DNA from: a virus
IMG/VR virus record: IMGVR_UViG_3300046028_010384
Coordinates: 1-23,144 of that record
Length of the DNA: 23,144 nt
Reading direction: 5' to 3' (one strand)
Positions within the stretch are counted from its first letter, which is position 1. Each line of letters begins with the position of its first letter. Positions 4,868-23,122 of the stretch are shown in pieces. The notes under the pieces were generated by a model that saw only the letters and a list, made by a program, of their open reading frames with translations, did no database searches and was not told where the DNA came from. The translations under genes and the position numbers were made by a program.

Positions 4868-6127
4868 ATGATTATATCTTTTAAAGAATGGTTGAAAATA
4901 GCCGAAGGTGTTATACATTCAGTTTTAAAGTCAAATCCAAAAAGCACACAAGACCCAACAAAGGACTTTTTGGTCTTGTTTGGCAATCATTTCGATGCAA
5001 AAGATATTCTTAAAAATATGGGATTTCGATATTTTAGAATGGATAACACATGGAGCATGCCAAGATTCGCATTTGATAAACTTTCTTCAAAACAAAAAGA
5101 AGAATTGAAAAATGCTGAAATTGATATAAGTCCGATGACTATGCCAAGAGAAAAGGCACTCGGAACAAAATCAAGTGAAGTAACAGTTGATCAGAATATT
5201 AAAAAAGAACTTGAAGAAATAAAAGATTTAGCTAAATCTGGACAGACATCAAGAATAGAACAACTTTTAGATAATCTTATTGAAGAAATTTCAAATCTTA
5301 CCGATGAAGCCAAAAAAAGCGAACTAATAAAAAACTTTCTCGAAATGTCAAGCAAGCTATATAAATATTCTCCTAGAAACCAATGGTTGATTTTTGCACA
5401 AAATCCCAAAGTTACAGATGTACAAAGCAAAACTAATTGGGCAAAATTAGGAAGAAAGATTAAGGAAGGAGCAGAAAAAAATCGTATGATTGTTTTTGCA
5501 CCTTGGTTTTTTTACCGCACAGAAAGAGATGAAACAACCGGAGAAGAAAAGAAAATAAAATCACTAAATCCAACTAAATTTATCATATCTTATGTTTATG
5601 ACATTTCCGATACTGAAGTTATGCCGAACGCAAAAACAGTATATAACCCACATAGTTGGAGACAAGATAGCAATGAACCTGTTGAGGAATTAGCCGGAAT
5701 TATAAACGCACTAATTAAATTCGCAGAAGAAAATAAGATTCCAATTAGCTTTGATAAAATGGACTATGCGATGGGCGGATATGCTACAGCACATGGTATT
5801 CATATCAACAATGAATATGATGGAATCAATAAAGCATCAACATTAGTTCATGAACTCGCTCATAATCTAATGCATTTTGTAGCAGAAAAATTATCTTTAA
5901 GTCGTGAAGAAGCCGAACATGATGCAGAATCTATTGCCTATGTATTTTTAAAACATTTTGGCTTTTCAAGTAAAGATTCGCCAACATATTTGGCGTTGTG
6001 GAAAGCAGATAAAGATAAAATAAAATCAAGAAGTAAAGGAATAAAAGACACAGTTTCAAAACTTATAAAAGCCGTTGAAAAATATTACAAAGAATCTGAT
6101 GTCGATTATGATCAAGAAGATGAATAA
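4868..6127 (+). CDS. ArdC-like antirestriction zincin with head-targeting-like N-terminus
   Basis: A 419-residue polyvalent protein. Residues 1-13 (MIISFKEWLKIAE) fit the T4-type capsid targeting peptide and end in I-A-E, a gp21-type cleavage site. About 35-90 is a small domain (VLFGNHFDAKDILKNMGFR ... NTWSMP) like those that pair LK-x-(M/L)-G with W-x-x-P. About 145-265 is the ArdC N-terminal ssDNA-binding domain (YSPRNQWLIFAQNP from Tyr167, then NWAKLGRKIKEG and FIISYVYDISDTE). About 270-400 is a zincin with HELAH (His328, Glu329, His332) and a likely third ligand Glu354 in AEHDAESIAYV. ArdC proteins block restriction and travel with plasmid DNA into recipients. A packaged phage version would protect incoming DNA; delivery is inferred from the tag. 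The ribosome site is AGGAG. Confidence 0.92.
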   Translation: MIISFKEWLKIAEGVIHSVLKSNPKSTQDPTKDFLVLFGNHFDAKDILKNMGFRYFRMDNTWSMPRFAFDKLSSKQKEELKNAEIDISPMTMPREKALGTKSSEVTVDQNIKKELEEIKDLAKSGQTSRIEQLLDNLIEEISNLTDEAKKSELIKNFLEMSSKLYKYSPRNQWLIFAQNPKVTDVQSKTNWAKLGRKIKEGAEKNRMIVFAPWFFYRTERDETTGEEKKIKSLNPTKFIISYVYDISDTEVMPNAKTVYNPHSWRQDSNEPVEELAGIINALIKFAEENKIPISFDKMDYAMGGYATAHGIHINNEYDGINKASTLVHELAHNLMHFVAEKLSLSREEAEHDAESIAYVFLKHFGFSSKDSPTYLALWKADKDKIKSRSKGIKDTVSKLIKAVEKYYKESDVDYDQEDE

Positions 6128-6161: not shown

Positions 6162-6302
6162 ATGAAAACATTTAAAGAATTTTTAGAACAAAGACAATCT
6201 CTAGATGCTAAGTGCTGGAAAGGCTATCATAAAAAGGGAACTAAAATGAAGAATGGCATTCGTGTCAACAACTGCATTGCCAACAAATCAAAGAAAATAT
6301 GA
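6162..6302 (+). CDS. 46-residue tagged Cys/Lys-rich peptide
   Basis: A small gene that is easily missed: ATG at 6162, TGA at 6300-6302, overlapping the next ATG (6299) as ATGA, which argues for real translation and coupling. The product begins MKTFKEFLEQRQS, very close to the T4 internal-protein leader, but no (L/I)-x-E site follows. The rest holds CWKGYHKKGTKMKNG and RVNNC, a pattern (C-W-K-G-Y...G-x-K...V-x-N-C, Cys18 and Cys38) that I associate with short conserved proteins in T4-like phages of marine origin. It is very basic and could bind DNA or be a head component. Its function is unknown. It sits 34 bases after the ArdC-like gene. Confidence 0.75.
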   Translation: MKTFKEFLEQRQSLDAKCWKGYHKKGTKMKNGIRVNNCIANKSKKI

Positions 6303-6745: not shown

Positions 6746-7162
6746 ATGAAATTTAATGAATGGCTAGAACTGCGTGAAGAAAAAGATGCATGTTATCACA
6801 AGGTCAAAAGTAGATATCGGGTTTTTCCCAGTGCCTATGCTTCTGGTGCGCTAGTCAAATGTCGTAAAGTTGGTGCTTCTAATTGGGGCAATTCCAAAAA
6901 AGAATCAAATATGAACGAAGACACTTTCAAAGCAGAAAAAGAAAAAGGTCTGCGTGGTTGGTTCGATAGAAATAAAGGAAAAGGATGGATCGATTGCAAA
7001 GCCAGCAAGAAAGGAAATCTTGTTCCGTGTGGAAGAAAAAAAGCTGGAAGAGGAACCGAAAGAAAATATCCTGCTTGTAGACCAACTCTAGGAGCTTGTA
7101 ACAAAACCGCAGTTAATAGGAAAAAAGGCAGCAAACCAATTTCTTGGAATAAAAAAAAATAA
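6746..7162 (+). CDS. DUF5872-like basic Cys-rich protein with head-targeting-like N-terminus
   Basis: 138 residues, strongly basic. Residues 1-11 (MKFNEWLELRE) match the targeting peptide and give L-R-E as a cleavage site. Two blocks follow: ACYHKVKSRYRVFPSAYASG with LVKCRKVGASNWG (about 16-48), and GLRGWFDRNKGKGWIDCK with PCGRKKAGRG and YPACRPTLGAC (about 69-118). The second resembles DUF5872, known from large DNA viruses and phages. Cys16, 39, 84, 95, 111 and 118 could bind zinc. High charge and small size suggest nucleic-acid binding inside the head, which is inference. The ribosome site AAGG stands eight bases before the ATG. The family call rests on motif memory, not a search. Confidence 0.85.
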   Translation: MKFNEWLELREEKDACYHKVKSRYRVFPSAYASGALVKCRKVGASNWGNSKKESNMNEDTFKAEKEKGLRGWFDRNKGKGWIDCKASKKGNLVPCGRKKAGRGTERKYPACRPTLGACNKTAVNRKKGSKPISWNKKK

Positions 7163-8100: not shown

Positions 8101-8913
8101 ATGATAATAGTTCACGATGGCAAAGCACATACTGATGACTTCCTAGCTACATGCGTTTTAATTCACAAACTTAATTGCAGAGCAATTAGAACCAAATGCA
8201 CACAAGAACATTTAGAGGATAAATCTTGTTGGGTGATTGATCAAGGAATGTCGTTTGATCCAGAGATGCACAATTTCGACCATCATCATATCAAAGAAGA
8301 AATTTGTTCTTTCACAATGATCTTAGATCATTTTTATAAAAAAGAATATAGAATTGCATTTCCACAATTGAAATTTGTTGAAATTATGGATTCGTATGGT
8401 CCAAAGGCTGCTGCCAAATTCTTCAACACAACAGAAGAAGTATTGGAAATTTCAAACAATCCAATTTGCGGAGCAATCATAAGTGTCTTCTCAAATATAA
8501 ATGGCGAAGTTAGCGATCCCTTATATTCAGTAATGAAACAAATGGGAGCATCAATTTGTCATTTGATTGAGAACACTGGAAGACTTTTAACCATGATTGA
8601 GAATGGCGTTAAATTTACTGAATATAAAAATCTGAAAATAATGAATGTTGTTGATTGCAAAATAGAAGAAGGATTTTCAGTAGAAGAACTTCCAACTAAA
8701 AAATATTGTAAACTTTCAAAAAAAGAAGCAGATGTTATTTTAACTAAAGATAACAGAGGTGGTGGATATCGCATGATTAGCAACAATACAGATAAATTGA
8801 AGTTTTTGCCAAACAAAAAAGCATACTTCACTCATAACAGTGGCTTCTTAGTTGCTTTCAAAGAATTAAATGATTATACTGACATATTATCTAACCACAG
8901 CAAAATAATGTAA
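8101..8913 (+). CDS. MYG1-like DHH-superfamily phosphoesterase
   Basis: 270 residues resembling the MYG1/UPF0160 family, DHH-superfamily metal-dependent phosphodiesterases. Eukaryotic MYG1 is reported to act as a 3'-5' RNA exonuclease. Seen here: IVHDGKAHTDDFLA (His5, Asp6, His10, Asp12, Asp13), WVIDQG with Asp47, and NFDHHH (Asp60, His61, His62), the metal-binding set expected for the family. The C-terminal half, with GVKFTEYKNLKIMNVVDCK and RGGGYRMISN, fits a substrate-binding lobe. It follows the methyltransferase by 11 bases with AAGG as ribosome site. A role in RNA or nucleotide turnover in the infected cell is inferred. An oligoribonuclease-like DHH enzyme is the alternative. Confidence 0.85.
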   Translation: MIIVHDGKAHTDDFLATCVLIHKLNCRAIRTKCTQEHLEDKSCWVIDQGMSFDPEMHNFDHHHIKEEICSFTMILDHFYKKEYRIAFPQLKFVEIMDSYGPKAAAKFFNTTEEVLEISNNPICGAIISVFSNINGEVSDPLYSVMKQMGASICHLIENTGRLLTMIENGVKFTEYKNLKIMNVVDCKIEEGFSVEELPTKKYCKLSKKEADVILTKDNRGGGYRMISNNTDKLKFLPNKKAYFTHNSGFLVAFKELNDYTDILSNHSKIM

Positions 8914-8962
8914 CATTGATTTCAATAAATTATCTTCTATATCAAGGAGATTAACATAAGAG

Positions 8963-8983
8963 AAAATTTTTATATAAAATTTT
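8963..8983. repeat. A/T-only inverted repeat in a 159-base non-coding gap
   Basis: Two AAAATTTT blocks flank TATAT, so the DNA could form an 8-base stem with a five-base loop made only of A and T. It lies in the gap 8914-9072, the longest non-coding stretch of the window. An AAGGAG at about 8945 has no start codon after it, and TATAAT stands at 9008-9013 without a good -35. The element might be a weak terminator after the MYG1-like gene or a regulatory site. Nothing else is evident in the gap. Confidence 0.25.
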
Positions 8984-9072
8984 AGTCATAATCAATCTTT
9001 AATGTCTTATAATTGGCATTAATCAAACGACATGTGCATAGATAATATCATAAATATCATGGAGGATAATTT

Positions 9073-9816
9073 ATGAACAAGCTAAGAACATGCGTTGTTT
9101 GTATCGCTAAGAATGAAGACAGAACTATCCAAGAGTGGTTAGACTACAACATCAAATTAGGGTTCGACAAAATATTCATCTACCAAAATGATTGGACTTG
9201 TAACATCGAACAAGATTACCTTACAAAATTACACTCCAATGGCAAGAATATACTTCCACAAGTTTATAATAACTGGCTATCATCTAAGTACCGCAATGAT
9301 TTCGATTGGGCAGCAATTATTGATTGCGATGAGTTTATTGTGCTTCATAAACACAAAACTATATCAGAATTCCTTTCTGAGTTTGATGCCGATGACACAG
9401 CTGGAATATCACCAAATTGGTTTTTTTTTGGTAGCGGAGGGCAAGAATCTCCAAGCCCAAATCCAGAAAGTCTCATTAAGAGATTCACATTTAGAGATAA
9501 GAATCCCAATATACATGTAAAAACTATAATAAATCTTAAAATAAAGTCTGCAATGGTTAATCCTCATTCTCCAAATAAACCGACTATTGATACTAATCGG
9601 AAAAAATTCTCAGGACCATTCAACCCAAATGGACCAACTGATATTATTCAGATAAACCATTACTATCATAAGTCTAAGCAAGAATGGATCGAAAGATTAA
9701 ATCGTGGACAAGCTGATGCTTGTAAAAGAACTATGGATATGTGGGATAAAACTATTAATAGTTATCGTGATGTTGAAGACTTAACAGCACTAAATTTTTT
9801 GTATCCAAAACTATAG
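9073..9816 (+). CDS. GT92/DUF23-like glycosyltransferase
   Basis: 247 residues of the Glyco_tranf_2_4/GT92 type. CVVCIAKNEDRTIQEWLDYN with LGFDKIFIYQND is the family's start. WAAIIDCDEFIVL holds the metal-binding D-C-D (Asp84, Asp86). NWFFFGSGG and the later INHYYHKSKQEWIERLNRG are also family marks. The GGAGG before the ATG is a strong ribosome site. It has no membrane segment and no tag (its EWLDY belongs to the enzyme fold). It is a second candidate for glycan change besides the gene at 3544; donor and acceptor are unknown. It probably forms a unit with the Fe-S carrier gene 11 bases downstream. Confidence 0.9.
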   Translation: MNKLRTCVVCIAKNEDRTIQEWLDYNIKLGFDKIFIYQNDWTCNIEQDYLTKLHSNGKNILPQVYNNWLSSKYRNDFDWAAIIDCDEFIVLHKHKTISEFLSEFDADDTAGISPNWFFFGSGGQESPSPNPESLIKRFTFRDKNPNIHVKTIINLKIKSAMVNPHSPNKPTIDTNRKKFSGPFNPNGPTDIIQINHYYHKSKQEWIERLNRGQADACKRTMDMWDKTINSYRDVEDLTALNFLYPKL

Positions 9817-10919: not shown

Positions 10920-13295
10920 ATGAGAATTTCAGACTATCTTCGTGAATCCTGCGCACTCAATCAAAAAAATCTTGATCGTGTTAAAGCTATTGAAAAAATA
11001 GCTTATCCATCACATATGCAATTCTATGGCGACTTTGATGACATAGATGATGTCATTGATTACGCTGATTGCGATGGACAAATTGATTGTATTATCCAAG
11101 ATGATTGGTATGCCATTTTTTGTAATGGACCAAGAGAAGTTGAAGTTATAGATTTAGCAGCCAGAAGATCACTATCACTTTCAGATTTACTTGTTATTTA
11201 TCAAAAAATGACATCTTTTGGAAATAAAATATTCACCATGAATGCTAGAGCTTCTACATCATATAGACTCATAAAACTTGGCGAGAAAAGAGGTATGTTT
11301 GAAATACTTCTAGATGAACCAAATTCGCTGAATGGCGAACCTATGCATGAAATTGAATTTAGAATAAAACCAAGAAATTCTTTCAAAGAATGGTTTTACA
11401 TAACAGAAGCAATAGATGCAAACACCAAGAATCTTTTGGCTAAAGCAAAAGCACCAAAAGATGAATTGGATGCTTTTATCAAGGAACTAGAAGATGAACC
11501 AACACTAATAGACAAACCAACCGCATTTCAAAGATTCCAAGCTAAATTCAATATACAAAAAAAAGTAACTGACGAAGACGCACAACGCAAACACTTCGCA
11601 ACAATCCTCAATACCACAGAAGAAGAATTACAAACTTATGATTATTACAAGAACGAAAACAAAGATTCACTCAAAAAAATGATGCAACAATTAAGAAAAT
11701 TTATCGAAAAGAAAATCATTACCCTTAAAATTGAAAATAAAGTACCAAATTTATACAGAAACACACTTCAAGGAAGTCAAAAGTTAGAAACACCAGACTT
11801 TGGTAGATTTACTAGTCAATTAGATTCAATACAAGGAAGTTTGGAACAATATAAAAGTAAAGGCAACTACTTCAACCCAATAGAAGAAGAATTAAACCAT
11901 CAACAAAACCTAGTTGCCAAAGGTAACAATGTTTGGGTGTTCAAAGGACTTGCACCAGATGTTTGTCGCATTTACGGCAAAGGTCACCCTTGGTGTATTT
12001 CTAGTTCAACTTCAGCAGCACATTGGTTTACTTACAGAATAGAACATCACCAAACTCAATACTTCGTTTTTGATTTCAACAAAGATGAAAATGATCCAGC
12101 ACGATATGTGAATCCCGGTGTTTCACCAGAAGGTATGTATTCTGAATGGGTTGATGCTAGAAATACACACAGTACCGATCCAGAAGATTCAGAATCAGAA
12201 GTTGGCATCAATGGTTACAATAGCATAAACCAATATAAGAAATATCTTGTAAGCAAAGGCATACCCGAATCTACTTGGACAACAACAAAACCAGAAGATT
12301 GGGAAAAAAGATTACATCAATATGATGAAAATAAAGATTTTACTTCTGCCAAAAATGATAAACATCCAGAAGTATTTCCCATGTATCTTAAGATTGTAAA
12401 TAGAATGGAAGATTCTGATTTTGACACATTAACTGATGAGCAAAAGAAAGAATTTATTTTAAGTAAAAATTATCATAAATTTACTAAAAAACAATTTGAA
12501 CATGCAATTAAAGAATTCAAAGGTGAATATTACAATTCTTTAAGTTTAGAGGACAAAATGGCTTTTGCTGTAAAAACTATGGATAAAGAAAAAATTATAA
12601 AATTTGTAAAAAATCCAGAATTTACTGATAATAATATTAGGATATTTTTTGCTAATGCATCTAATGCAACAGATAAAGACAAAATGGCAGAACTAATTAT
12701 AAATGAAAAGCCAAAACTTTCTGATAATAATGTTGGGATGTTGCTTTATTATGCAACAGATAAAGACAAAATAGCAGAATCTATAATAAACAAAAAACCA
12801 GAACTTTCTGATAAAAATGTTAAAAATTTGCTTAATGTTGCAACCTACAAAGACAAAATGGCAGAATCTATTATAAAATATAAAACAGAACTTTCTGATG
12901 ATAATGTTGAACAGTTGCTTTATAACTCAACCGAAAAAGATAAAATTGCAGAATTAATCATAAAATATAAAACAGAACTTTCTGATCGAAATGTTTATAA
13001 TTTATTTAGTTATGCAGAAAAAAAAGAAAAAATAGCAAAACTACTAGGTAAAAATAATATAAATAAAATTTATAGTCTTGGCATTAAAAATTTACTTGAA
13101 AAAAATATAGATATAGAAAAAATAGCAAAAATCCTAGGAACATATAACATAAGCAAACTTTCTGAATCAAGTATTAGTTGGTTACTTAATTATTCACCCA
13201 ATAAAAAACAAATGGCACAAATCCTTAACCAATACCACACAAATAAAACACTAAAAATCCAACAACTCATAGATAAATACCTCCATGAACTTTAA
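10920..13295 (+). CDS. Large tagged protein: GNAT-like domain, internal second tag, CIS-motif domain and 29-aa solenoid
   Basis: 791 residues in four parts. (1) Residues 1-9, MRISDYLRE, a short tag ending L-R-E. (2) About 15-153, with IDCIIQDDWYAIF, MNARASTSYRLIK and EKRGMFEILLDEP, which looks like a GNAT acetyltransferase fold. (3) SFKEWFYITEA at 154-164, a complete second tag with I-T-E, then a helical stretch and a domain with Cys349, GKG 353-355, WCIS 358-361 and QYFVFDF, shared with the gene at 21416. (4) About 560-785, an alpha-solenoid of 29-residue units (LSDxNVxxLLxxATxKDKxAExII). The whole looks like a head-packaged effector or a fusion of two cargo proteins, possibly split by the prohead protease. 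Its activity is unknown. It overlaps the next gene by 11 bases. Confidence 0.88.
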   Translation: MRISDYLRESCALNQKNLDRVKAIEKIAYPSHMQFYGDFDDIDDVIDYADCDGQIDCIIQDDWYAIFCNGPREVEVIDLAARRSLSLSDLLVIYQKMTSFGNKIFTMNARASTSYRLIKLGEKRGMFEILLDEPNSLNGEPMHEIEFRIKPRNSFKEWFYITEAIDANTKNLLAKAKAPKDELDAFIKELEDEPTLIDKPTAFQRFQAKFNIQKKVTDEDAQRKHFATILNTTEEELQTYDYYKNENKDSLKKMMQQLRKFIEKKIITLKIENKVPNLYRNTLQGSQKLETPDFGRFTSQLDSIQGSLEQYKSKGNYFNPIEEELNHQQNLVAKGNNVWVFKGLAPDVCRIYGKGHPWCISSSTSAAHWFTYRIEHHQTQYFVFDFNKDENDPARYVNPGVSPEGMYSEWVDARNTHSTDPEDSESEVGINGYNSINQYKKYLVSKGIPESTWTTTKPEDWEKRLHQYDENKDFTSAKNDKHPEVFPMYLKIVNRMEDSDFDTLTDEQKKEFILSKNYHKFTKKQFEHAIKEFKGEYYNSLSLEDKMAFAVKTMDKEKIIKFVKNPEFTDNNIRIFFANASNATDKDKMAELIINEKPKLSDNNVGMLLYYATDKDKIAESIINKKPELSDKNVKNLLNVATYKDKMAESIIKYKTELSDDNVEQLLYNSTEKDKIAELIIKYKTELSDRNVYNLFSYAEKKEKIAKLLGKNNINKIYSLGIKNLLEKNIDIEKIAKILGTYNISKLSESSISWLLNYSPNKKQMAQILNQYHTNKTLKIQQLIDKYLHEL
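12717..13064 (+). repeat. 87-base tandem coding repeat, four units
   Basis: CTTTCTGAT starts units at 12717, 12804, 12891 and 12978, a strict 87-base (29-residue) period. A diverged unit precedes them at 12621, nine bases out of phase. Three spacings of exactly 87 bases with high DNA similarity suggest recent duplication. The encoded unit forms a two-helix repeat of a solenoid. Confidence 0.85.
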
Positions 13296-14532
13296 ACAAT
13301 GGTTAATATCTGAAGAATTAGAAACTATAGACACTCACATGTCAGTTCCAGAGGAACTAGAAGAAATAGCACACATCATGAAAGCACATGGCAAAACCTG
13401 CTATGTAGTCGGTGGTGCTGTAAGGGATCATCTCTTTAATCACTTCCACGACATGAAAAAAGACATAAACGACTACGACCTAGCCACAGACGCACTTCCA
13501 GAAGAAACAAGAAAAATAATCCACAATACAACCATAGCCAATGGAAGATTTAAATTAGAAATATTCGAGAAGGGAATAGACCAAGGAGTACTTTCCATCA
13601 TTGTCAAAGACATGGAAGGAAAGAAGAAAGATGAATTTGAAATAGCAACCTTCAGAAAAGAAGTATATTCTGGCAATTCAAGAATACCAGAAAAAACAGA
13701 ATTTGGAGCGACACCAGAAGAAGATACTAAAAGAAGAGACTTGAACTACAATGCTTTGTTCTATGATACGATAAACAAAAAAGTAAGAGATTATAATCAC
13801 GGAAAAGGTATCGAAGACATAAAGAACAAACACACAAGTGTAGTAGGAGATCCATTCCAGAGATTCTACGAAGACAAACTTAGAGTTTTGCGTGTGGTTA
13901 GATTCTTTAACAGATACAATGATGACAATATAATGAGTCATCTTGACGATAAGACCAAAATGGCAATAGCCGAATTCAAGAACTTAGAAAATGTCAGCAA
14001 GGAAAGAATCAACAAGGAATTTATTTCTGGTTTGAAGCAAAGTAAATCTCCAGCTAATTTTATCAAGTCTTTAAAAGAATTGGATCTCATTCACAACATC
14101 ATGCCAGAAAGAATAAAAATTTCAAAATTGGAACCTCTGGATCAAATGAATAACGATCTTCCTGCTATGATTGCTTACATACTCAGTGAAGAAGCTCCCA
14201 ATAAGAAACTGTCTGATATGTTGATACAGTACAAGTTCGAATATGATGTTCTTACTCCTGCGATCATAATTTTAAAAGCATATAACATGTTCAAGAATCC
14301 AATGAGCCACGACTACAAAATTCATGACATATCCAGAGAAATGAAGAGAGTTCCTTATAAGTCCATAGAACCATTCATGAGTCATTTCGGATTTGAGGAT
14401 GAATCTAAGAGATTATTTGAACATAAGCCTAAATACTCTGGTGCAGATGTCGCACACTTTGGATTAAAAGGAAAAGATATAAGTGATAAACTTGATCGAA
14501 TGGAAAAGGATAATTTCTTCAATGTACAATAA
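13285..14532 (+). CDS. CCA-adding-enzyme/poly(A)-polymerase-like nucleotidyltransferase with head-targeting-like N-terminus
   Basis: 415 residues of the class II tRNA nucleotidyltransferase/poly(A) polymerase family, which adds C and A to tRNA 3' ends without a template. Motif A is YVVGGAVRDHL with the metal-binding D-Y-D in NDYDLATDALPEE. Then come IATFRKE, EDTKRRDLNYNALFYD and EDKLRVLRVVRFFNR, all as in active members, followed by a helical neck/body (ERINKEFISGL, DLIHNIMPE). No HD domain is evident. Residues 1-10, MNFKQWLISE, are a head-targeting-like leader ending I-S-E. A normal CCA enzyme starts near the VPEEL helix, so the leader is an addition. The start overlaps the upstream gene by 11 bases and lacks a Shine-Dalgarno site. 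CCA addition and poly(A) addition cannot be told apart here. Confidence 0.93.
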   Translation: MNFKQWLISEELETIDTHMSVPEELEEIAHIMKAHGKTCYVVGGAVRDHLFNHFHDMKKDINDYDLATDALPEETRKIIHNTTIANGRFKLEIFEKGIDQGVLSIIVKDMEGKKKDEFEIATFRKEVYSGNSRIPEKTEFGATPEEDTKRRDLNYNALFYDTINKKVRDYNHGKGIEDIKNKHTSVVGDPFQRFYEDKLRVLRVVRFFNRYNDDNIMSHLDDKTKMAIAEFKNLENVSKERINKEFISGLKQSKSPANFIKSLKELDLIHNIMPERIKISKLEPLDQMNNDLPAMIAYILSEEAPNKKLSDMLIQYKFEYDVLTPAIIILKAYNMFKNPMSHDYKIHDISREMKRVPYKSIEPFMSHFGFEDESKRLFEHKPKYSGADVAHFGLKGKDISDKLDRMEKDNFFNVQ

Positions 14533-15616
14533 AAATAACCCGAATTACATGCTTTACTTGTCTGGTCTCATTACAGAGAATCAATATTACGACATATTGG
14601 AAGGCAAAGTAAACGAAAATTATTTCGAAGATAAAAGTAAATCTGATCACTTAAAAGAAGTCATAGATATAATGAAATGGCAGTTCAAAGTTAAAGATAA
14701 AATTGATGCGGGTATTGATGTAGATGAAAAATTAGAAAGATACGCTGAACTTAACAAAGATCTAAAAGACGCTTTGTACAAATACATAACAACTAGAGAA
14801 GATTATGACACTGTCAAAATAAAAGACAAATTTAATGATGGCGATTATAAAAAGATGCGATTAGATGCAATAAATTATGTCAACTTACACAACCAAGTTT
14901 CTTGGAAAGCACAAGAATTTAAAGGATGGACTCAATTTTGGAAAATCGAAACGATTCCTAAAGACACACAATTTCAATCTCACAAATGGTTTTGGACAAT
15001 TGAACCAAATTCACATAAAAGTTTTATCGACAGCGTTAAATTCCTTCCTTCGGAGTTTGATAAAACAACAAAATTGAAAGATGTGTATTTTTCTTTTAAA
15101 ATTGCAAACGATGAGGATGTTGCTAAAAGCCACAGAGACACATTAGTGCTTCATTACAAGGATCAAAATGCAGGTCCAGATATAAAAAGAGTTGTTGATA
15201 ATTTTATTGCAAAACTTAAAATTGTTCCAGTTGATCGTAAAAAAGCATTTTCGGGAATGGCTTCTGATGAAGGAGTTGATGTGCATGGAAGTTCTGAAAC
15301 TGAGTTGATTTGTAGTCAAGTAATAAAGCAAATTGAATACAATCAAGAAGTAATGAAATCATTATCTGATGGTGAAATTACAAATACTATAAATCATCTT
15401 ATAAAAAACGCATACGATAAATCTAGGCATAGGAAGCCACTACCACAAGGCACATCAATTACAGATATGGCACAAAAAATAAAAGATCCTAGATGGAATA
15501 TGATGTACAAACAATGGGTCAAAGGTGATAAAAAAGATATGGAACTTGCTAGAAAATTGGCTTTTTCTGGAGTAAATCATGATATGAAACATTTAGGTTT
15601 TAATTCAAAAAAGTAA
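14522..15616 (+). CDS. Tagged protein of the MYNKNNPNY type, 364 aa
   Basis: The frame is open from 14483, but the start at 14522 is chosen because the product then begins MYNKNNPNYMLYLSGLITE, nearly identical to the start of the next gene. The overlap with the upstream gene is again 11 bases. I-T-E (17-19) is a possible prohead-protease site. A Lys/Glu-rich helical part follows, then a domain with WFWTIEPNSHKSF and VYFSFKIANDEDVAKSHRDT leading to LVLHY (Arg205-Tyr212) and VDVHGSSETELICSQVI. The R-D-T-L-V-L-H-Y region faintly recalls HopA1-type effector or lyase domains; I would not rely on it. The C-terminus SITDMAQKIKDPRW matches the end of the next protein. Function is unknown; probably head cargo or a virion protein. 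Confidence 0.85.
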   Translation: MYNKNNPNYMLYLSGLITENQYYDILEGKVNENYFEDKSKSDHLKEVIDIMKWQFKVKDKIDAGIDVDEKLERYAELNKDLKDALYKYITTREDYDTVKIKDKFNDGDYKKMRLDAINYVNLHNQVSWKAQEFKGWTQFWKIETIPKDTQFQSHKWFWTIEPNSHKSFIDSVKFLPSEFDKTTKLKDVYFSFKIANDEDVAKSHRDTLVLHYKDQNAGPDIKRVVDNFIAKLKIVPVDRKKAFSGMASDEGVDVHGSSETELICSQVIKQIEYNQEVMKSLSDGEITNTINHLIKNAYDKSRHRKPLPQGTSITDMAQKIKDPRWNMMYKQWVKGDKKDMELARKLAFSGVNHDMKHLGFNSKK

Positions 15617-15620
15617 AAAC

Positions 15621-16505
15621 ATGTACAATAAAAACAATCCGAACTACAATCTGTACCTAGCTGGAATCATTACTGAAAACCAGTACTATGAAGCAATTGA
15701 TGATGCACAAGAACAAATCAAATCGCCTACAGGAGCTACGCTAACTCATTATTTTGAAACCGCACAAGGATCTAAATATATTTTATCATCCAATAACGAA
15801 TCAAGAAGAATAAAATCTTATCATTCTAATACTGGAGGAGAAGATTCTGGTCTTAAAAATTGGTACGGTAAATGTTTCTTTACTCCAGAAAAATTCCAAA
15901 CTAATTTTCTTGCTTATCAACAATTAAACTCATATGGAATATCAAATATAGCATTGACATCAATCAAACAAGGCTATCTTACTTTTATGATGCATGATGG
16001 AAAAGAATGGGTTCCAGTAAGATTTAAAGATGCTTATAAAAAAGCAGTCAAAAACATGCCAGAAAAAGCAGAAGACATCATGGAATTCCCTTTTGTTAAA
16101 ATACCAACTATTGGATATAATGCCATCGAATGGAACGAAAAGGGTAATAAGACCATAAAAGAATACCACCCCGGATCTCCAGTGGCTATTGTTAAAGACA
16201 TTAAAGATGCTACAGAAGATATTAAAGCATTTACTTCAAATGATGTAACTTCTAATACTCCACAAGCAAAACCTTCTAATACTCCGCAAGTTCAATCTGA
16301 GAAACAAACACTAGATGATTTAGCTTCTAAAGTTGGCGATACTAAATGGCACTCTCTTTTTGATGTCTTTCAAAGATTATCTTTTAGAAATCCAGAAAAA
16401 GCTAAAGTTATTGGCAATGCATTGCAACAAGCGGCAGAAGAAAACAATATGCAACATATTCAACCATTTGTTAAAACATATGTAGATGCACAAAAAACAC
16501 AATGA
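15621..16505 (+). CDS. Tagged protein of the MYNKNNPNY type, 294 aa
   Basis: Starts MYNKNNPNYNLYLAGIITE, then NQYYEAIDD, a near copy of the N-terminus of the gene just upstream, four bases away. The middle is different: GSKYILSSNNESRRIKSYHS, GLKNWYGKCFF and HDGKEWVPVRFKDAYKKAV form a compact domain I cannot name. A Pro/Ser/Thr-rich linker with twice-repeated SNTPQ follows near 212-225. The end, TLDDLASKVGDTKWHSLF, resembles the C-terminal module of the upstream protein. The shared ends with unlike middles suggest a cassette-like family built for one destination, probably the phage head. No Shine-Dalgarno site is seen, so coupling to the upstream gene is likely. Confidence 0.85.
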   Translation: MYNKNNPNYNLYLAGIITENQYYEAIDDAQEQIKSPTGATLTHYFETAQGSKYILSSNNESRRIKSYHSNTGGEDSGLKNWYGKCFFTPEKFQTNFLAYQQLNSYGISNIALTSIKQGYLTFMMHDGKEWVPVRFKDAYKKAVKNMPEKAEDIMEFPFVKIPTIGYNAIEWNEKGNKTIKEYHPGSPVAIVKDIKDATEDIKAFTSNDVTSNTPQAKPSNTPQVQSEKQTLDDLASKVGDTKWHSLFDVFQRLSFRNPEKAKVIGNALQQAAEENNMQHIQPFVKTYVDAQKTQ

Positions 16506-16549: not shown

Positions 16550-17290
16550 ATGATTGCTGACTTTTTAAGAGGCGAATATATTTATGATGGATACACACTA
16601 ATAGGTGCTGATGGTGATGTTGGCGATATGGGTCATGAGGCTCATATCATGCAAACAATTTGTTCAACATATGCAGAACAACTAGTTCAAATTGCAGAAG
16701 ACTCAATAGATAAAGCAAAAGTATCAAAAGAACTTCTTCAAGAATTAGAAGAAAGCAAAATAAAAGTTAAAAAAGATATTCGTAGTGATAATTATGACAC
16801 ATTCGATGTATTTAATCTCTATAGTTATATACAAAAAATTAACCCACAATTGGTATCTAATGAAAAATTAAAAGAAGGTATGTGGGCATTAAGAGGTGGA
16901 GATGCCAGAAAATATGGATGTAAATATTTAGGATATATTCTCATTAGACAAAATAATTTTGAAGTGTGGGAATTAAATCAAGAAACATCTAAGAAAATTG
17001 TAAATGCATCTCATGAAATAGCACAAGATTATATGGACATATTAGACGAAAAAGATATTGAAGAACAAGAAGTTGAAGTTTACTCTTACAAAACAAATCA
17101 ATCTAGAAATTATACTCTCGGAGAATTAGAACAAGGTCAAATTTTAAAGACTGCTACTGCACCAACCACAAAAGCTTCTATGTATATTCCCCCACCTTCT
17201 GTGACAAAAAAACTTTCACCTACACAAAGACATCAATTGCTTTATACAAGTGAAAGCTTTTCTTTCAAGGAATGGCTAAAAAGTAATTGA
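16550..17290 (+). CDS. Hypothetical protein with a tag-like C-terminus, 246 aa
   Basis: Unrecognised, acidic, 246 residues. The N-terminus MIADFLRGEYIYDGYTLIG is not a standard tag. The middle includes a helical region (AEQLVQIAEDSIDKAKVSKE) and GMWALRGGDARKYGCKYLGY with FEVWEL, which looks like a small alpha/beta domain. A Pro/Thr-rich linker leads to the last 13 residues, SESFSFKEWLKSN, which reproduce the F-K-E-W-L core of the N-terminal tags elsewhere in the window (compare SFKEW at 154-158 of the gene at 10920). AAGG lies ten bases before the ATG. Either the targeting signal works at the C-terminus here, or this is the scar of a fused downstream tagged gene. Function is unknown. Confidence 0.82.
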   Translation: MIADFLRGEYIYDGYTLIGADGDVGDMGHEAHIMQTICSTYAEQLVQIAEDSIDKAKVSKELLQELEESKIKVKKDIRSDNYDTFDVFNLYSYIQKINPQLVSNEKLKEGMWALRGGDARKYGCKYLGYILIRQNNFEVWELNQETSKKIVNASHEIAQDYMDILDEKDIEEQEVEVYSYKTNQSRNYTLGELEQGQILKTATAPTTKASMYIPPPSVTKKLSPTQRHQLLYTSESFSFKEWLKSN

Positions 17291-17316: not shown

Positions 17317-17958
17317 TCATAATCCATTTCCGCCATTATTGAATCCACCACCAAACTGACCACCACCAAACTGACCACCGCCACCACTCTGAAATGCTGA
17401 ACCACCTACACCAGATATAATGCCTTGCATTGCCATTTGATAAAAAGGATTGTTCATACCCACAGCTTGACCTCCAGTGCCGCCAAATTGTCCAACTCCA
17501 CCGCCCTGACCAAATTGACCACCACCAAATTGACCACCACCAAATTGACCACCACCAAATTGACCACCACCAAATTGACCACCACCAAATTGACCACCAC
17601 CAAATTGACCACCACCAAACTGACCACCACTATTCATTACTCCACCACCTGTAGAAAGTGGAATTTGATAAAGTTGCGAGATTTGCATTCCCGGAGTATT
17701 GTTTTGTGTGTATTGGGCAGTACCTTGAATTCCTCCAGTATTTTGTTGGAAGCCGCCACCGCCAAAACCGCCACCAATACTAGAACTACTTCCAGTATTG
17801 AAATTAATGTTTTGATTAGAAATCTGTGCTTTAACTGTATTGTTTAATGCAGGTGGTGCTGGTGGAGCAGGTGGTAGTATAAATCTATATCTTGATTCTT
17901 GAGATATAGCAAAATTTGAAACAAAAGTTAAAAAGCTAATTGTCAATAATTTGTTCAT
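17317..17958 (-). CDS. Secreted Gly-rich protein with (GGGQF)n repeats
   Basis: 213 residues. Residues 1-19 (MNKLLTISFLTFVSNFAIS) form a Sec signal peptide, with a likely cut before QES. A Pro-rich patch (LPPAPPAPPAL) follows, then Gly/Gln/Asn/Ser-rich sequence with a tandem block of GGGQF pentapeptides and a second short block near the C-terminus. The hydrophobic stretch NPFYQMAMQGIISGVGGSAF lies between. AAAGGA precedes the ATG. There is no enzyme domain; a flexible or self-associating surface or periplasmic protein is the best guess. It is the only plainly exported product here and the only minus-strand gene in the right half, which hints at separate acquisition or expression. Function is unknown. 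Confidence 0.82.
   Translation of the reverse strand: MNKLLTISFLTFVSNFAISQESRYRFILPPAPPAPPALNNTVKAQISNQNINFNTGSSSSIGGGFGGGGFQQNTGGIQGTAQYTQNNTPGMQISQLYQIPLSTGGGVMNSGGQFGGGQFGGGQFGGGQFGGGQFGGGQFGGGQFGGGQFGQGGGVGQFGGTGGQAVGMNNPFYQMAMQGIISGVGGSAFQSGGGGQFGGGQFGGGFNNGGNGL
17521..17625 (-). repeat. 15-base tandem repeat encoding GGGQF
   Basis: Seven head-to-tail 15-base units (plus-strand ACCACCAAATTGACC), six identical and the last with one C for T. A partial unit precedes them, and two more related copies lie near 17348-17378. Identity at the DNA level, including third positions, suggests slippage or recent expansion. Changes of whole units keep the frame. Confidence 0.93.
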
Positions 17959-18029: not shown

Positions 18030-19493
18030 ATGAGAACATTTGCACAATATCTAGAAAACAGAGATCAAAAATTTTATGACCAGATTATTGATGAGGGTAT
18101 TGTAGGAGATGCAGCCAAGTGGGTTGGAGATAAGGCTAAAGGAGCTTATAAGGGAGTCAAGGACTTTTTCGGAGAGTTCATGTCTAAGCTTAAGGATCAA
18201 TTCGGAGACTTTAAAACCGACATGAGTAGACTCAAAGAATTAGACAAAGAACATAAGTTGGATCAGATGAAGCGTGATATCGATGAAGCAGAGAAATTGG
18301 GAAATGAACAACATAAAAAAGAAGTAAGAAAAAGATGGTTCAAATGGTTAGTTACCGCAGGAGTAATTCTTGTTACGGCTCTAACAGTATCGGCAGGACA
18401 CGCTCATGGTGGCGGTCCATTAGACGGTCCTCTGGTAAAACATATGCCAGACAAAACCGGAGATTCACATGGTCTAGATGGCATTCAAAAGACGATAGAC
18501 GATGCCAAGGGATCAATCCACAACGCTGAGAAGGTTGGTTTTATGCCACTCAGTCATTTCGAAAAACTTGGAAAAGAAGATAATGTACTTTCTGGAATAA
18601 AATGGGAATTAAAAAATAATATGAATGGCAAAAGTCTTTTGAAATTCAAGAACGCTCTTGGGAAAGAAGGAGAATTCTCAAAGATTTTCAACCACACCAT
18701 TCAGAAATCTGGGGTAAAGGAAGCCATCAGCGTAGCAAATGAACTTTCTAAGATATCAAAGATTGGAAATTATGATTCCATGGAAATGATCAAAATTTTA
18801 AAATCAGAAATTTCAAAAGACGCAAGTTTGAAAAATAGTCCTGAGTTTAAAGAATTGATAAAATCTTTTAGTGGTGACATTACGCAAGGCAGCGAATATA
18901 CGAAAAAGATCGAAGATCACATCAAAAAAGACAAGGCAGATTCGGAAAAATCTGCAGCCGATAAAGAAGTCCAAGCAAAAAAAAATATGGCAAATCAAGA
19001 AAAACAAAAAAAGGTTTCCGATCAAGACGATAAAGATTACGCAGTTAAAAAGCAAGAAAACGAAAAGACCAAAGGTGAAATTTTAAAAACCGCACCATCT
19101 GACATAATCAACAAAATTCACGCCAGTTCAAATTCAGCTGTTAAAAGCCTATCACAGAACGAACTTGACAACATAATAATAAAGACTTTCAAGGATCAAG
19201 GCGATAAAGCAGGACTTCAGTTGATAAACATTATATCCATGAAAGGTGCCTTGGCAAATATTACAAGTAAACAACACACCGATGATTACGGCTATATGAA
19301 ATTTACATCTGGTCCGGAATTCGTAAAGCAGTCCGTTAAGAAATTAGGATCGAGTCCAGAAACCATGAAGGAATTAGATAGAATTTATAAAGGCGGACAG
19401 GATGGAAGCCATAAAAAGATAGGAATAGAATATGGCTATAAAGAGTCGATACGAGAATGTCTCGTTCTTGCAGGATTAGCAATTAACAATTAA
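18030..19493 (+). CDS. Tagged membrane-segment protein, 487 aa
   Basis: Begins MRTFAQYLENRDQKF, a variant tag shared with the next gene. I-D-E at 20-22 is a possible cleavage site. About 25-70 is amphipathic helix (DAAKWVGDKAKGAYKGVKDF), 70-102 is charged coiled coil, then one membrane span at about 103-122 (WFKWLVTAGVILVTALTVSA) and a His/Gly-rich hinge (GHAHGGGPLDGP). The rest is helical, with a very Lys/Glu/Gln-rich coil around 295-350 and the end MKELDRIYKGGQDG. Function is unknown. A packaged protein with one hydrophobic segment could insert into the host membrane during DNA entry, which is speculation. Codon use seems somewhat less AT-rich at the 5' end than in neighbours. AAAGGCTCA precedes the start, as at 1450. 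Confidence 0.86.
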   Translation: MRTFAQYLENRDQKFYDQIIDEGIVGDAAKWVGDKAKGAYKGVKDFFGEFMSKLKDQFGDFKTDMSRLKELDKEHKLDQMKRDIDEAEKLGNEQHKKEVRKRWFKWLVTAGVILVTALTVSAGHAHGGGPLDGPLVKHMPDKTGDSHGLDGIQKTIDDAKGSIHNAEKVGFMPLSHFEKLGKEDNVLSGIKWELKNNMNGKSLLKFKNALGKEGEFSKIFNHTIQKSGVKEAISVANELSKISKIGNYDSMEMIKILKSEISKDASLKNSPEFKELIKSFSGDITQGSEYTKKIEDHIKKDKADSEKSAADKEVQAKKNMANQEKQKKVSDQDDKDYAVKKQENEKTKGEILKTAPSDIINKIHASSNSAVKSLSQNELDNIIIKTFKDQGDKAGLQLINIISMKGALANITSKQHTDDYGYMKFTSGPEFVKQSVKKLGSSPETMKELDRIYKGGQDGSHKKIGIEYGYKESIRECLVLAGLAINN

Positions 19494-19518: not shown

Positions 19519-20313
19519 ATGAACATAAATTATTCGTTCTCAAATTACTTGGAAAATAGAGATTTAAAAGAAGTCGCAGAATATATGACTGGCGATGATG
19601 CAAATATAACCATCAGAGATCTTGATGGAAGAACTTACTTGGCTTCACATAAAGAATTAGGATCTATTCTTCAATTTGAACATGATTGGAATTTAGATTC
19701 TAAAAAAATGGGAACAACATCATTTGACAAAGATGTCACACATCGTGGCTTTCGAGTGAGCTTGCCTCAAAAACAAGATAAATATGGTAAAGACATGGCA
19801 TCTGATCAATCAAAATTATTAGGCTCATATTTGGCAGCTATAACAAAATTTATAAAAGAATATAAACCGGGAACTTTAGATTTTGGATCTCTTTTTAGTG
19901 ATGTTAGTGGCAATAGAAGTGAGATAATTCCACTTATGCAAAAATCTTTGAAAACTATTGCAATGAAAAATGATATGTCATTTTTAAATAACAAAATGTT
20001 GAACAAAGATGCTCTAGAATCTTTAAATCGCAAAACAAGAGTAGCTGGAAAAGGCTTTACTGGAATTGATGATGAAAAAGAAACACAGTCTGGATATAGA
20101 GGTAGTGATAAAACAGAAAAACAAATTAGACAAGATAGAATGCAGAACATGATGGGCAAAAGATCTTCTATTCAACAAACTAAAGATTTTATGTCTCAAC
20201 AAAGAAGCGAATATGATGCGAAAAAAAAAGCTAGAGATGAAAGATTAGCTCCAAAACCTGCACCTGCACCTGCACCAAAGAAATCATTTTTTGGCGGAAT
20301 GTTCGGATCGTAA
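19519..20313 (+). CDS. Tagged protein of the YLENRD type, 264 aa
   Basis: Begins MNINYSFSNYLENRDLKEVAE. FSNYLENRDLK parallels FAQYLENRDQK of the gene just upstream, 25 bases away. L-K-E at 16-18 fits the cleavage rule. Residues about 25-130 look like a mixed alpha/beta domain (ANITIRDLDGRTYLASHKEL, THRGFRVSLPQKQDKYG). The C-terminal third is basic and helical (KQIRQDRMQNMMGKRSS), then PAPAPAPKK and FFGGMFGS. The Gly/Phe tail resembles a docking or insertion peptide. AGGA lies eight bases before the ATG. I do not recognise the family; the shared tag suggests the same destination as its neighbour. Confidence 0.85.
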   Translation: MNINYSFSNYLENRDLKEVAEYMTGDDANITIRDLDGRTYLASHKELGSILQFEHDWNLDSKKMGTTSFDKDVTHRGFRVSLPQKQDKYGKDMASDQSKLLGSYLAAITKFIKEYKPGTLDFGSLFSDVSGNRSEIIPLMQKSLKTIAMKNDMSFLNNKMLNKDALESLNRKTRVAGKGFTGIDDEKETQSGYRGSDKTEKQIRQDRMQNMMGKRSSIQQTKDFMSQQRSEYDAKKKARDERLAPKPAPAPAPKKSFFGGMFGS

Positions 20314-20959: not shown

Positions 20960-21412
20960 ATGAAATCATTCATGGAATTTTTACAACTTAAAGAAGAAGA
21001 CAATCCATCTGCTATGCGTGGAGGAAAAACTGCAAATAAAGTTATTGAAGACTTACTTCATTTTAAAGTAGGCGACAAATTGCTATTCAATAGCAAACCA
21101 ATTCAAATCGAAGGTATTATTGTAGATGCTACCGATTCAAATAATAAAAGAATTCAAAAAAGATTAAATTCTGTGAAGGAAGCTGCTGATTTTGTTGATA
21201 ACAATTCCAACTTGATGGATGGCGTTGTCGAAACTTACTTTGGAAGCAATCCAATTTATCTTTTGAACATTACTGGTGGAATTATAGCACGACATTTTAT
21301 GGCAGATAAATTACTACAACAAGTAAAACCTATTCCAGAAGATGATTCTCCCTTGGCTGTTAAAAAATGGAAATCATATGGTGAGCATAAAAAATCATTA
21401 TCTGATTGGTAA
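20960..21412 (+). CDS. Small tagged protein, 150 aa
   Basis: Begins MKSFMEFLQLKEED, a clear tag with L-K-E at 10-12. After cleavage, about 138 residues would remain. FKVGDKLLFNSKPIQIEGIIV (about 36-56) suggests a small beta-barrel, then a helix (RIQKRLNSVKEAADFV) and PIYLLNITGGIIARHFMADK. I do not recognise the family. AAGG stands about ten bases before the ATG, in an AT-rich leader with TATATTTATAA. The next tagged gene starts three bases after its stop, so the two are probably made together. Confidence 0.86.
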   Translation: MKSFMEFLQLKEEDNPSAMRGGKTANKVIEDLLHFKVGDKLLFNSKPIQIEGIIVDATDSNNKRIQKRLNSVKEAADFVDNNSNLMDGVVETYFGSNPIYLLNITGGIIARHFMADKLLQQVKPIPEDDSPLAVKKWKSYGEHKKSLSDW

Positions 21413-21415
21413 ACC

Positions 21416-23122
21416 ATGAACTTTAAAGAATGGTTGTTACTGACCGAAGTAAAGAAATCCAGCGATATTGCCAAAGAACTACTCGGCAATAATGAATCTT
21501 TGTTTAAACAAATAAAATCCATCATTCCAACTGATGCTAAACAAGATTTACAAGCGAAACTTCTGCCTGTCGCTGCATTCTACCACAAACAACAACCAAA
21601 CCTTAATACCCTCAAACAATACTTGGAAGACTATGCAAACTTAGTCAAACTAAATAAAATGCAGATCATTACAGTAAATGATGATCTGACCATAAACAAT
21701 GAATTCAAATCTTATATCCATTGGACTGAAATTATTGATGGCAAAAAACACGAAGGAAAAGTTCTTAATGCACCAATACAAGGTGATGTAAGTGACCAAG
21801 AACTCATTGCACAGTCAACAGACAATAAGATAAAGGTTTATAAAGCAAACTCAGTAAATCAATGTATCGTACTCGGTAAAGGTGAATCCTTCTGTATTTC
21901 ACAACCAGCCAATACTATGTTTCAATCTTACAGAGATACTAAGACATCAACTTTTTACTTTGTCTATGACAATACAAGAACTGATGATCTTGCAATCGTT
22001 GTAGTAGATGCAACACAAGACGGAATTGAACTTACAGATCGTAAAAATCAAACCGGACACACGATGCAAGACCCCCGTGAAACTACAGAAAAAAGAATAA
22101 ATTCAAATCCAGATCTATATTTCAAATACCTACAAGAAAAAGGTATTGACACAACTATCTTCGAAAATATACCAAAATCATCACAAGAAAAAGCAGAACA
22201 TGAAAAATTAGGAGAATCAGATTATAGCTTAGACTGGTTCAAATCCCTCACACCAGAAGAAAAATCTAAATATATCGGAAGAGGACATGAACTTTCACAT
22301 CCTCAGTTCGATTATATCTATGATAACAATTTCACTCTACTTTTAAAACAATATGTGAGGACTGGAGTAAAAGTTGAAATTTATCAATTAAACAAAATTG
22401 CTTCTAAAAAAGAATTAAAAGATAGTTATTTACATAATAGATTAATCGCAGACAAACACAATAAAAACCTTTCAAAACAAGAATACGACTTGTTGAGTCC
22501 AAAACAAAAAGAAGAATTTTACAATGTCCATGATGAAGACAAACTTGAAAAAGCTTTTCAAATTGAAGATTTTTCTCTAGTAAAAGAATTGATCGAAAAA
22601 GGACAACAAGTTCCACATTATGCTATTGATAGAGCAATAAGAAAAAATAGACTTGATCTAGTGAAATATTTTGTAAAACACGGCTTATGGTTAGATGCAT
22701 ATACTAATGTAAGATCTGCAATTGCATATAATAGTCTTGAAATTTTAAAATACCTTTTAGATGAAAAAAATCAAGAAATAAGACCATATGATATCGATGA
22801 AGCTTTTAGGCGTGATAATGTTGATATTGTAAAATACTTAATCGATGAAAAAAACAAGGAAATACCTTTTAATGCTGTTAACATGGCGGCATCTGGTGGA
22901 AATCTTAATATTTTAAAATACTTGATTGATGAAAAAAATAAAGATATAAGACCTAGTGATGTAAAAAATGCAAGCCTTGCTGACGAGCTTGATGTTTTAA
23001 AATACTTTTTTGATGAAAAGGGTTTTAAACTACCACCTAAAGATTTTTCATTTGTTATCAATGGCGCAAGGACACAAAAAGTTAAAGATTATTTAATACA
23101 AAAACAAAAAGAACAAAAATAA
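21416..23122 (+). CDS. Tagged CIS-motif protein with ankyrin-like solenoid
   Basis: 568 residues. Tag MNFKEWLLLTE with L-T-E at 9-11, nearly the same at DNA level as the start of the gene at 13285. A helical part leads to a domain with Cys150, GKG 154-156, FCIS 159-162, then FQSYR and TFYFVYD. This matches, with the same spacing, the domain in the gene at 10920. A linker holds LTPEEKSKYIG and LSPKQKEEFYN, parallel to LTDEQKKEFI of that gene. From about residue 388 come six ankyrin-like units (L-x-x-L-K-Y-L-I-D-E-K) of 27-28 residues. The two genes share one plan: tag, CIS domain, linker, solenoid. A host-targeted effector carried in the head is plausible; its activity is unknown. Confidence 0.9.
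   Translation: MNFKEWLLLTEVKKSSDIAKELLGNNESLFKQIKSIIPTDAKQDLQAKLLPVAAFYHKQQPNLNTLKQYLEDYANLVKLNKMQIITVNDDLTINNEFKSYIHWTEIIDGKKHEGKVLNAPIQGDVSDQELIAQSTDNKIKVYKANSVNQCIVLGKGESFCISQPANTMFQSYRDTKTSTFYFVYDNTRTDDLAIVVVDATQDGIELTDRKNQTGHTMQDPRETTEKRINSNPDLYFKYLQEKGIDTTIFENIPKSSQEKAEHEKLGESDYSLDWFKSLTPEEKSKYIGRGHELSHPQFDYIYDNNFTLLLKQYVRTGVKVEIYQLNKIASKKELKDSYLHNRLIADKHNKNLSKQEYDLLSPKQKEEFYNVHDEDKLEKAFQIEDFSLVKELIEKGQQVPHYAIDRAIRKNRLDLVKYFVKHGLWLDAYTNVRSAIAYNSLEILKYLLDEKNQEIRPYDIDEAFRRDNVDIVKYLIDEKNKEIPFNAVNMAASGGNLNILKYLIDEKNKDIRPSDVKNASLADELDVLKYFFDEKGFKLPPKDFSFVINGARTQKVKDYLIQKQKEQK
22577..23077 (+). repeat. 84-base tandem coding repeat (ankyrin-like)
   Basis: Repeat starts (the leucine, isoleucine or valine before the LK-Y motif) lie at 22577, 22658, 22742, 22826, 22910 and 22994. 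The last four spacings are 84 bases and the first 81. AAATAC plus GATGAAAA recur in the last four units. The 28-residue period is shorter than the usual 33-residue ankyrin unit. Confidence 0.8.

Follow-up and report, generated by a model that had tools for sequence, protein, structure and literature searches.

In phage T4, the capsid-targeting sequence (CTS) that directs cargo has its targeting determinants at residues 4 and 7 and its processing determinants at residues 8 and 10, and gp21 cleaves after (L/I)-x-E (PMC9026906). In record AF158101, from which we took the T4 leaders, IPII and IPIII start MKTYQEFIAE|A, and IPI, an injected restriction inhibitor of 95 aa, starts MKTFKEF. The product of T4 gene 61.1 in the same record (L243 18966–19130), small and annotated as hypothetical, has the CTS-like start MKTFKEFIKED. 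The DarA and DarB proteins of phage P1 share the logic of head-packaged antirestriction, and the N-terminal residues of DarB send a reporter into the head, but they are unrelated to the protein analyzed here (P0001) and use a head pathway that is not of the T4 type.

The plasmid counterpart is ArdC. With R388, ArdC in the donor does not rescue transfer whereas ArdC in the recipient does, export being "not a requirement," and the protease activity is dispensable for antirestriction (PMC7213743). Iyer and colleagues cite the transfer of pSa ArdC and call ArdC-N rare in phage-type elements (PMC5512222). The earlier note on this DNA had taken plasmid ArdC to travel with the DNA, a premise on less firm ground than the note suggests: the cited pSa transfer backs it, but in R388 ArdC rescues in recipients and not in donors. 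ArdC-like peptidases have already been noted in jumbo phages (PMC7824862). The polyvalent proteins with ArdC-N and MPTase domains (Iyer 2017) and the ArdC-like MPTases of jumbo phages (Iyer 2021) have the same domain pair as P0001 and have been proposed to be transferred with DNA; unlike in P0001, no capsid-targeting leader is mentioned in the accessible parts of these sources. Our literature search, for which many subscription papers were outside reach, found no paper joining CTS cargo and an ArdC-like protein. Delivery of cargo by a CTS is established for T4; a cargo of the ArdC type, and leaders that differ by lineage and can be recognized in the sequence, look like a new variation on it. 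We think it probable, with some reservation, that P0001 belongs to the ArdC family, is encoded by a T4-superfamily phage, is addressed by a CTS to the prohead core, is ejected with the DNA, and acts against restriction.

Domain layout and fold of P0001

The window, by which we mean the whole stretch analyzed, is the entire IMG/VR record IMGVR_UViG_3300046028_010384 of 23,144 bases. The ORF at 4868–6127 on the plus strand is present and open, and its product, P0001, has 419 aa. The parts listed in the earlier note could all be located: the tag ending I-A-E is seen as MIISFKEWLKIAE followed by G (residues 1–13; 4868–4906), with a predicted gp21-type cut after E13; the small N-terminal domain occupies residues ~32–90 (4961–5137); a helix and an ArdC-N-like, putatively ssDNA-binding domain cover residues 128–255 (5249–5632), the ArdC-N-like region itself spanning residues ~146–255; and the zincin-like metallopeptidase domain covers residues 273–411 (5684–6100), with the HELAH motif at H328–H332 (5849–5863). 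The small domain is kept in phage relatives, where it shows the pattern ...L.V.S..........ET...K..LK..GF.W.....W, and is modeled at pLDDT 72–89.

A scan of viral contigs with P0001 as a single protein found no relative, but relatives were recovered when those from phage records were aligned and the alignment was used for the scan, giving 80 loci. In a 32-sequence alignment including P0001, H328, E329, H332, E350, and E354 are invariant, and 31 of the 32 members, these being phage and mobile-element proteins, match the Pfam family ArdcN (PF08401). P0001 on its own gave no ArdcN match in Pfam at E ≤ 0.1, and its ArdC assignment is therefore based on alignment and fold; an NCBIfam search returned a weak HExxH match only. 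Among solved structures, the alignment profile matched R388 ArdC (6sna/6i89; E 3.5e-4). The AlphaFold2 model of P0001 has a mean pLDDT of 76.8, with values mostly about 80–95 and a few lower stretches in the ArdC region, and its best Foldseek match was R388 ArdC 6i89 (E 1.4e-7, probability 1.00), the next family having E 0.13. Structural matches to R388 ArdC reached Z 9.8 and 9.6 over residues 128–412, with a loose superposition (rmsd 6–8 Å), so that the domain arrangement of P0001 may differ from that of ArdC. Alignment and model together confirm, at the level of prediction, an ArdC fold with the N-domain followed by the zincin in residues 128–412; the fold is thus predicted in the region 145–400, where its absence would have spoken against the earlier note.

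Like the ArdC of R388 and pSa (6i89, 6sna), P0001 shows the full-length fold, an ArdC-N-like domain and a zincin in the same order, and an intact catalytic motif; it differs in having a capsid leader and an extra N-terminal domain of ~60 aa, and the identity is ~11–17%. R388 ArdC is required in the recipient, and a head signal is not applicable to it.

The conservation of HExxH and the glutamates in all 32 sequences would also suit a packaged effector protease, brought into the head by the leader, whose zincin then cleaves a host protein, for example a defense or regulatory one, with ArdC-N merely serving as a DNA tether. The next structural family for the model is IrrE/PprI, a regulated protease, matched in the zincin half only, and PMC7824862 proposes that ArdC-like MPTases of jumbo phages cleave host proteins. 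We nevertheless consider this reading unlikely, as the active-site glutamate is dispensable for antirestriction by R388 ArdC (PMC7213743) and no substrate is known.

The leader and its spread

To return to P0001 as a proposed head-addressed antirestriction protein, F5 and W8 of its leader are spaced as in T4, E7 is equivalent, and I11-A12-E13 follows, so that the leader conforms to the CTS pattern of two aromatics three residues apart and (I/L)-x-E within ~10–19 residues. T4 IPI, IPII, and IPIII likewise have F/Y-x-E-aromatic before an (I/L)-x-E cut, but the cargo of P0001 is unrelated to them, larger, and built of DNA-binding and protease-like domains.

We searched with one fixed leader pattern and took the expectation from shuffled N-termini. 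Of the 24 window ORFs, 7 carry it (0.15 expected), and it recurs in 22 of 224 in the related contig G004 (1.75 expected), and in 23 of 120 in G003 (1.2 expected). The same pattern was present in 91 of 901 ORFs, against 4.5 expected, in an out-of-sample set of loci fetched later around gp23-type (T4-type major capsid) genes, where the leaders have the consensus M-K-T-F-K-E-W-L. An (I/L)-x-E past the motif was seen in 49 of the 83 clade carriers compared with 8.1 in shuffles (maximum 16), and in 41 of the 91 out-of-sample carriers compared with 8.5. Its E is mostly at residue 10–12 (residue 10 in T4), and the second aromatic of the leader is usually W. A translation-start artefact was ruled out, as internal Met positions seldom match the pattern.

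The cargo is unrelated from carrier to carrier and includes a C39 peptidase, NUDIX (Pfam E 5.6e-17), an FMN reductase, ankyrin, a tRNA nucleotidyltransferase, thymidylate kinase (E 4.7e-22), and proteins of unknown function. Some carriers looked by eye like ADP-ribosyltransferases; Pfam gave no support, and this identity is not claimed. Within the window, all on the plus strand, the leader is carried by a 46-aa ORF (6162–6302) whose start MKTFKEFLEQ has its first seven residues in common with T4 IPI; a DUF5872-like protein by Pfam (6746–7162; MKFNEWLELREE); a tRNA nucleotidyltransferase/poly(A) polymerase-like protein (13285–14532; MNFKQWLISEE; PF01743, E 4.4e-24); three proteins of unknown function (18030–19493, MRTFAQYLENRDQKF; 19519–20313, MNINYSFSNYLENRD; 20960–21412, MKSFMEFLQLKEE); and an ankyrin-repeat protein (21416–23122; MNFKEWLLLTEV; PF12796, E 1.4e-12). 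Long proteins of unknown function related to that at 10920–13295 occur in G003 and G004, and most of the five G003 matches bear a leader.

The T4 determinants, the (I/L)-x-E site, the modular use across the clade, and the gp21-type protease of relatives (see below) all point to a T4-type capsid-targeting sequence, so that computation supports the capsid targeting leader put forward in the earlier note. The leader might instead be an address for a target other than the head, such as a replication site, the membrane, or a host partner, with the protein acting in the infected cell after its synthesis; short amphipathic helices serve many purposes, and thymidylate kinase, NUDIX, and tRNA nucleotidyltransferase are metabolic enzymes found among the carriers. 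This seems improbable to us, as the determinants and cleavage motif are those mapped experimentally in the T4 CTS, (I/L)-x-E is enriched at the T4 position, the head cluster itself contains leader proteins, and related phages have a gp21-type protease. The metabolic enzymes, FMN reductase among them, are nonetheless less obvious head cargo and count against packaging of P0001.

P0001 relatives in other lineages start with MTYKDFFKEYN, MKNFIKKFLEEA, MKIRLTESQINYLVE, or MKKIKITKEQYQKL...NE, and the relative in L125 has no clear leader. Two further leader types, IKKxLxE and ITExQ, were defined after inspection of the relatives and are thus a less secure part of the evidence. In G020, they were found 12 times versus 1.2 and 6 times versus 0.25, respectively, and the F-x-E-W type was not enriched; in G004 and G003, the F-x-E-W type was enriched and the other two were not; and in G023 the excess of IKKxLxE was not significant. 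When 10-kb flanks were compared, only some 5 of 21 contigs gave clear evidence of a shared leader. No P0001 relative was found in five close contigs, all partial records, and the gene is accessory. As judged from these sequences, the body is kept in relatives from other T4-superfamily phages, and the leader type mostly tracks the phage lineage and not the ArdC body.

Leader-like motifs were also seen at C-termini. The ORF at 16550–17290 ends in SFSFKEWLKSN (17255–17287, plus strand), and the strict C-terminal form F.EWL, picked after the fact, occurs in 4 of 948 proteins (0.05 in shuffles), the others being G004 87940–88362 and 117950–118429 and G040 42324–43025, with two internal occurrences in 189,579 aa. 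Only the strict form is enriched, a loose C-terminal pattern giving 10 versus 8.0. The motif recalls the C-terminal propeptide of T4 Alt. A second repeated N-terminus, MYNKNNPNYxLYLxGxITENQYY, is common to the adjoining ORFs 14522–15616 and 15621–16505 and occurs in G004 at 4973–5689. The minus-strand ORF at 17317–17958 encodes a protein rich in glycine, with GGGQFGGGQF repeats and a start that looks secretion-like; it is kept in G004 (8275–9120). The T4 late-promoter motif TATAAATA is not enriched in the window (3 versus 2.95).

Head machinery and a possible route into the cell

The window is probably a fragment of a freshwater T4-type (T4-superfamily) phage. Comprising the whole record, it is without head genes of its own, and gp21 and gp23 were found neither in it nor in its closest large relatives G001–G005, themselves partial records, so we infer the T4 head through a chain of relatives. 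The window and G004 have seven genes in common (median 89%), and the chain continues from G004 to G034 and to G037, and from G037 to G040. G040, a member of the window's group, has, in T4 order, a portal, a leader protein (MTRFKEWLINE|AAIG), a protease, a scaffold-like ORF, and the major head protein. A leader gene of G004 recurs, 79% identical, next to a gp23-type gene in L370, and G007, of the window's group, encodes T4 gp18, gp13, gp15, gp46, and gp47. A conserved three-gene block, by eye PrkA kinase/YeaH/SpoVR-like, lies at 111167–116088 in G037, 49441–56841 in G034, and 106015–113443 in G004. Among phages bearing P0001 relatives, G020, G021, G022, G023, and G027 have both a gp21-type protease and gp23; most other contigs with relatives gave no gp21/gp23 match and are probably fragments without head genes.

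That P0001 is a component of the prohead core or of head-size control, ArdC-like only by ancestry, is very improbable given that the gene is accessory and absent from sampled close relatives and that its active site and DNA-binding fold are intact, even if P1 DarA and Hdf tie antirestriction proteins to head morphogenesis (PMC12810830, PMC9024508) and P0001 relatives adjoin structural-looking genes in L127, L143, and L150.

For P0001 as a CTS-addressed antirestriction protein, we infer packaging, cleavage, ejection, and anti-restriction as successive steps. The F-x-E-W part of the leader would bind the core during head assembly, a gp21-type protease would cleave past I-A-E(13) and free the body in the head, and at infection the body would leave the head with the DNA. 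Once ejected, it would bind DNA and hinder restriction ahead of phage expression. Carried in through the head, the protein would already be in the cell when infection begins, an advantage that expression from a plasmid after its entry does not offer. That R388 ArdC is effective when made in the recipient, and independently of its protease, counts against this explanation.

More broadly, it is possible, with the chances a little under even, that phages of the T4 superfamily, jumbo phages included, bring dozens of different proteins into the head via lineage-specific head-address peptides, F-x-E-W-L here, IKKxLRE and ITExQ elsewhere, and some perhaps C-terminal. The injected arsenal of uncultured phages could then be inferred from their sequences, and ArdC would be a cargo that recurs, each time with its leader exchanged to suit the phage. 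If true, a DNA protector of the conjugation type would have been turned into a virion-borne counter-defense, and a short, testable leader would single out the proteins with which a large number of uncultured T4-type phages begin an infection; at present such sets are known for few phages.
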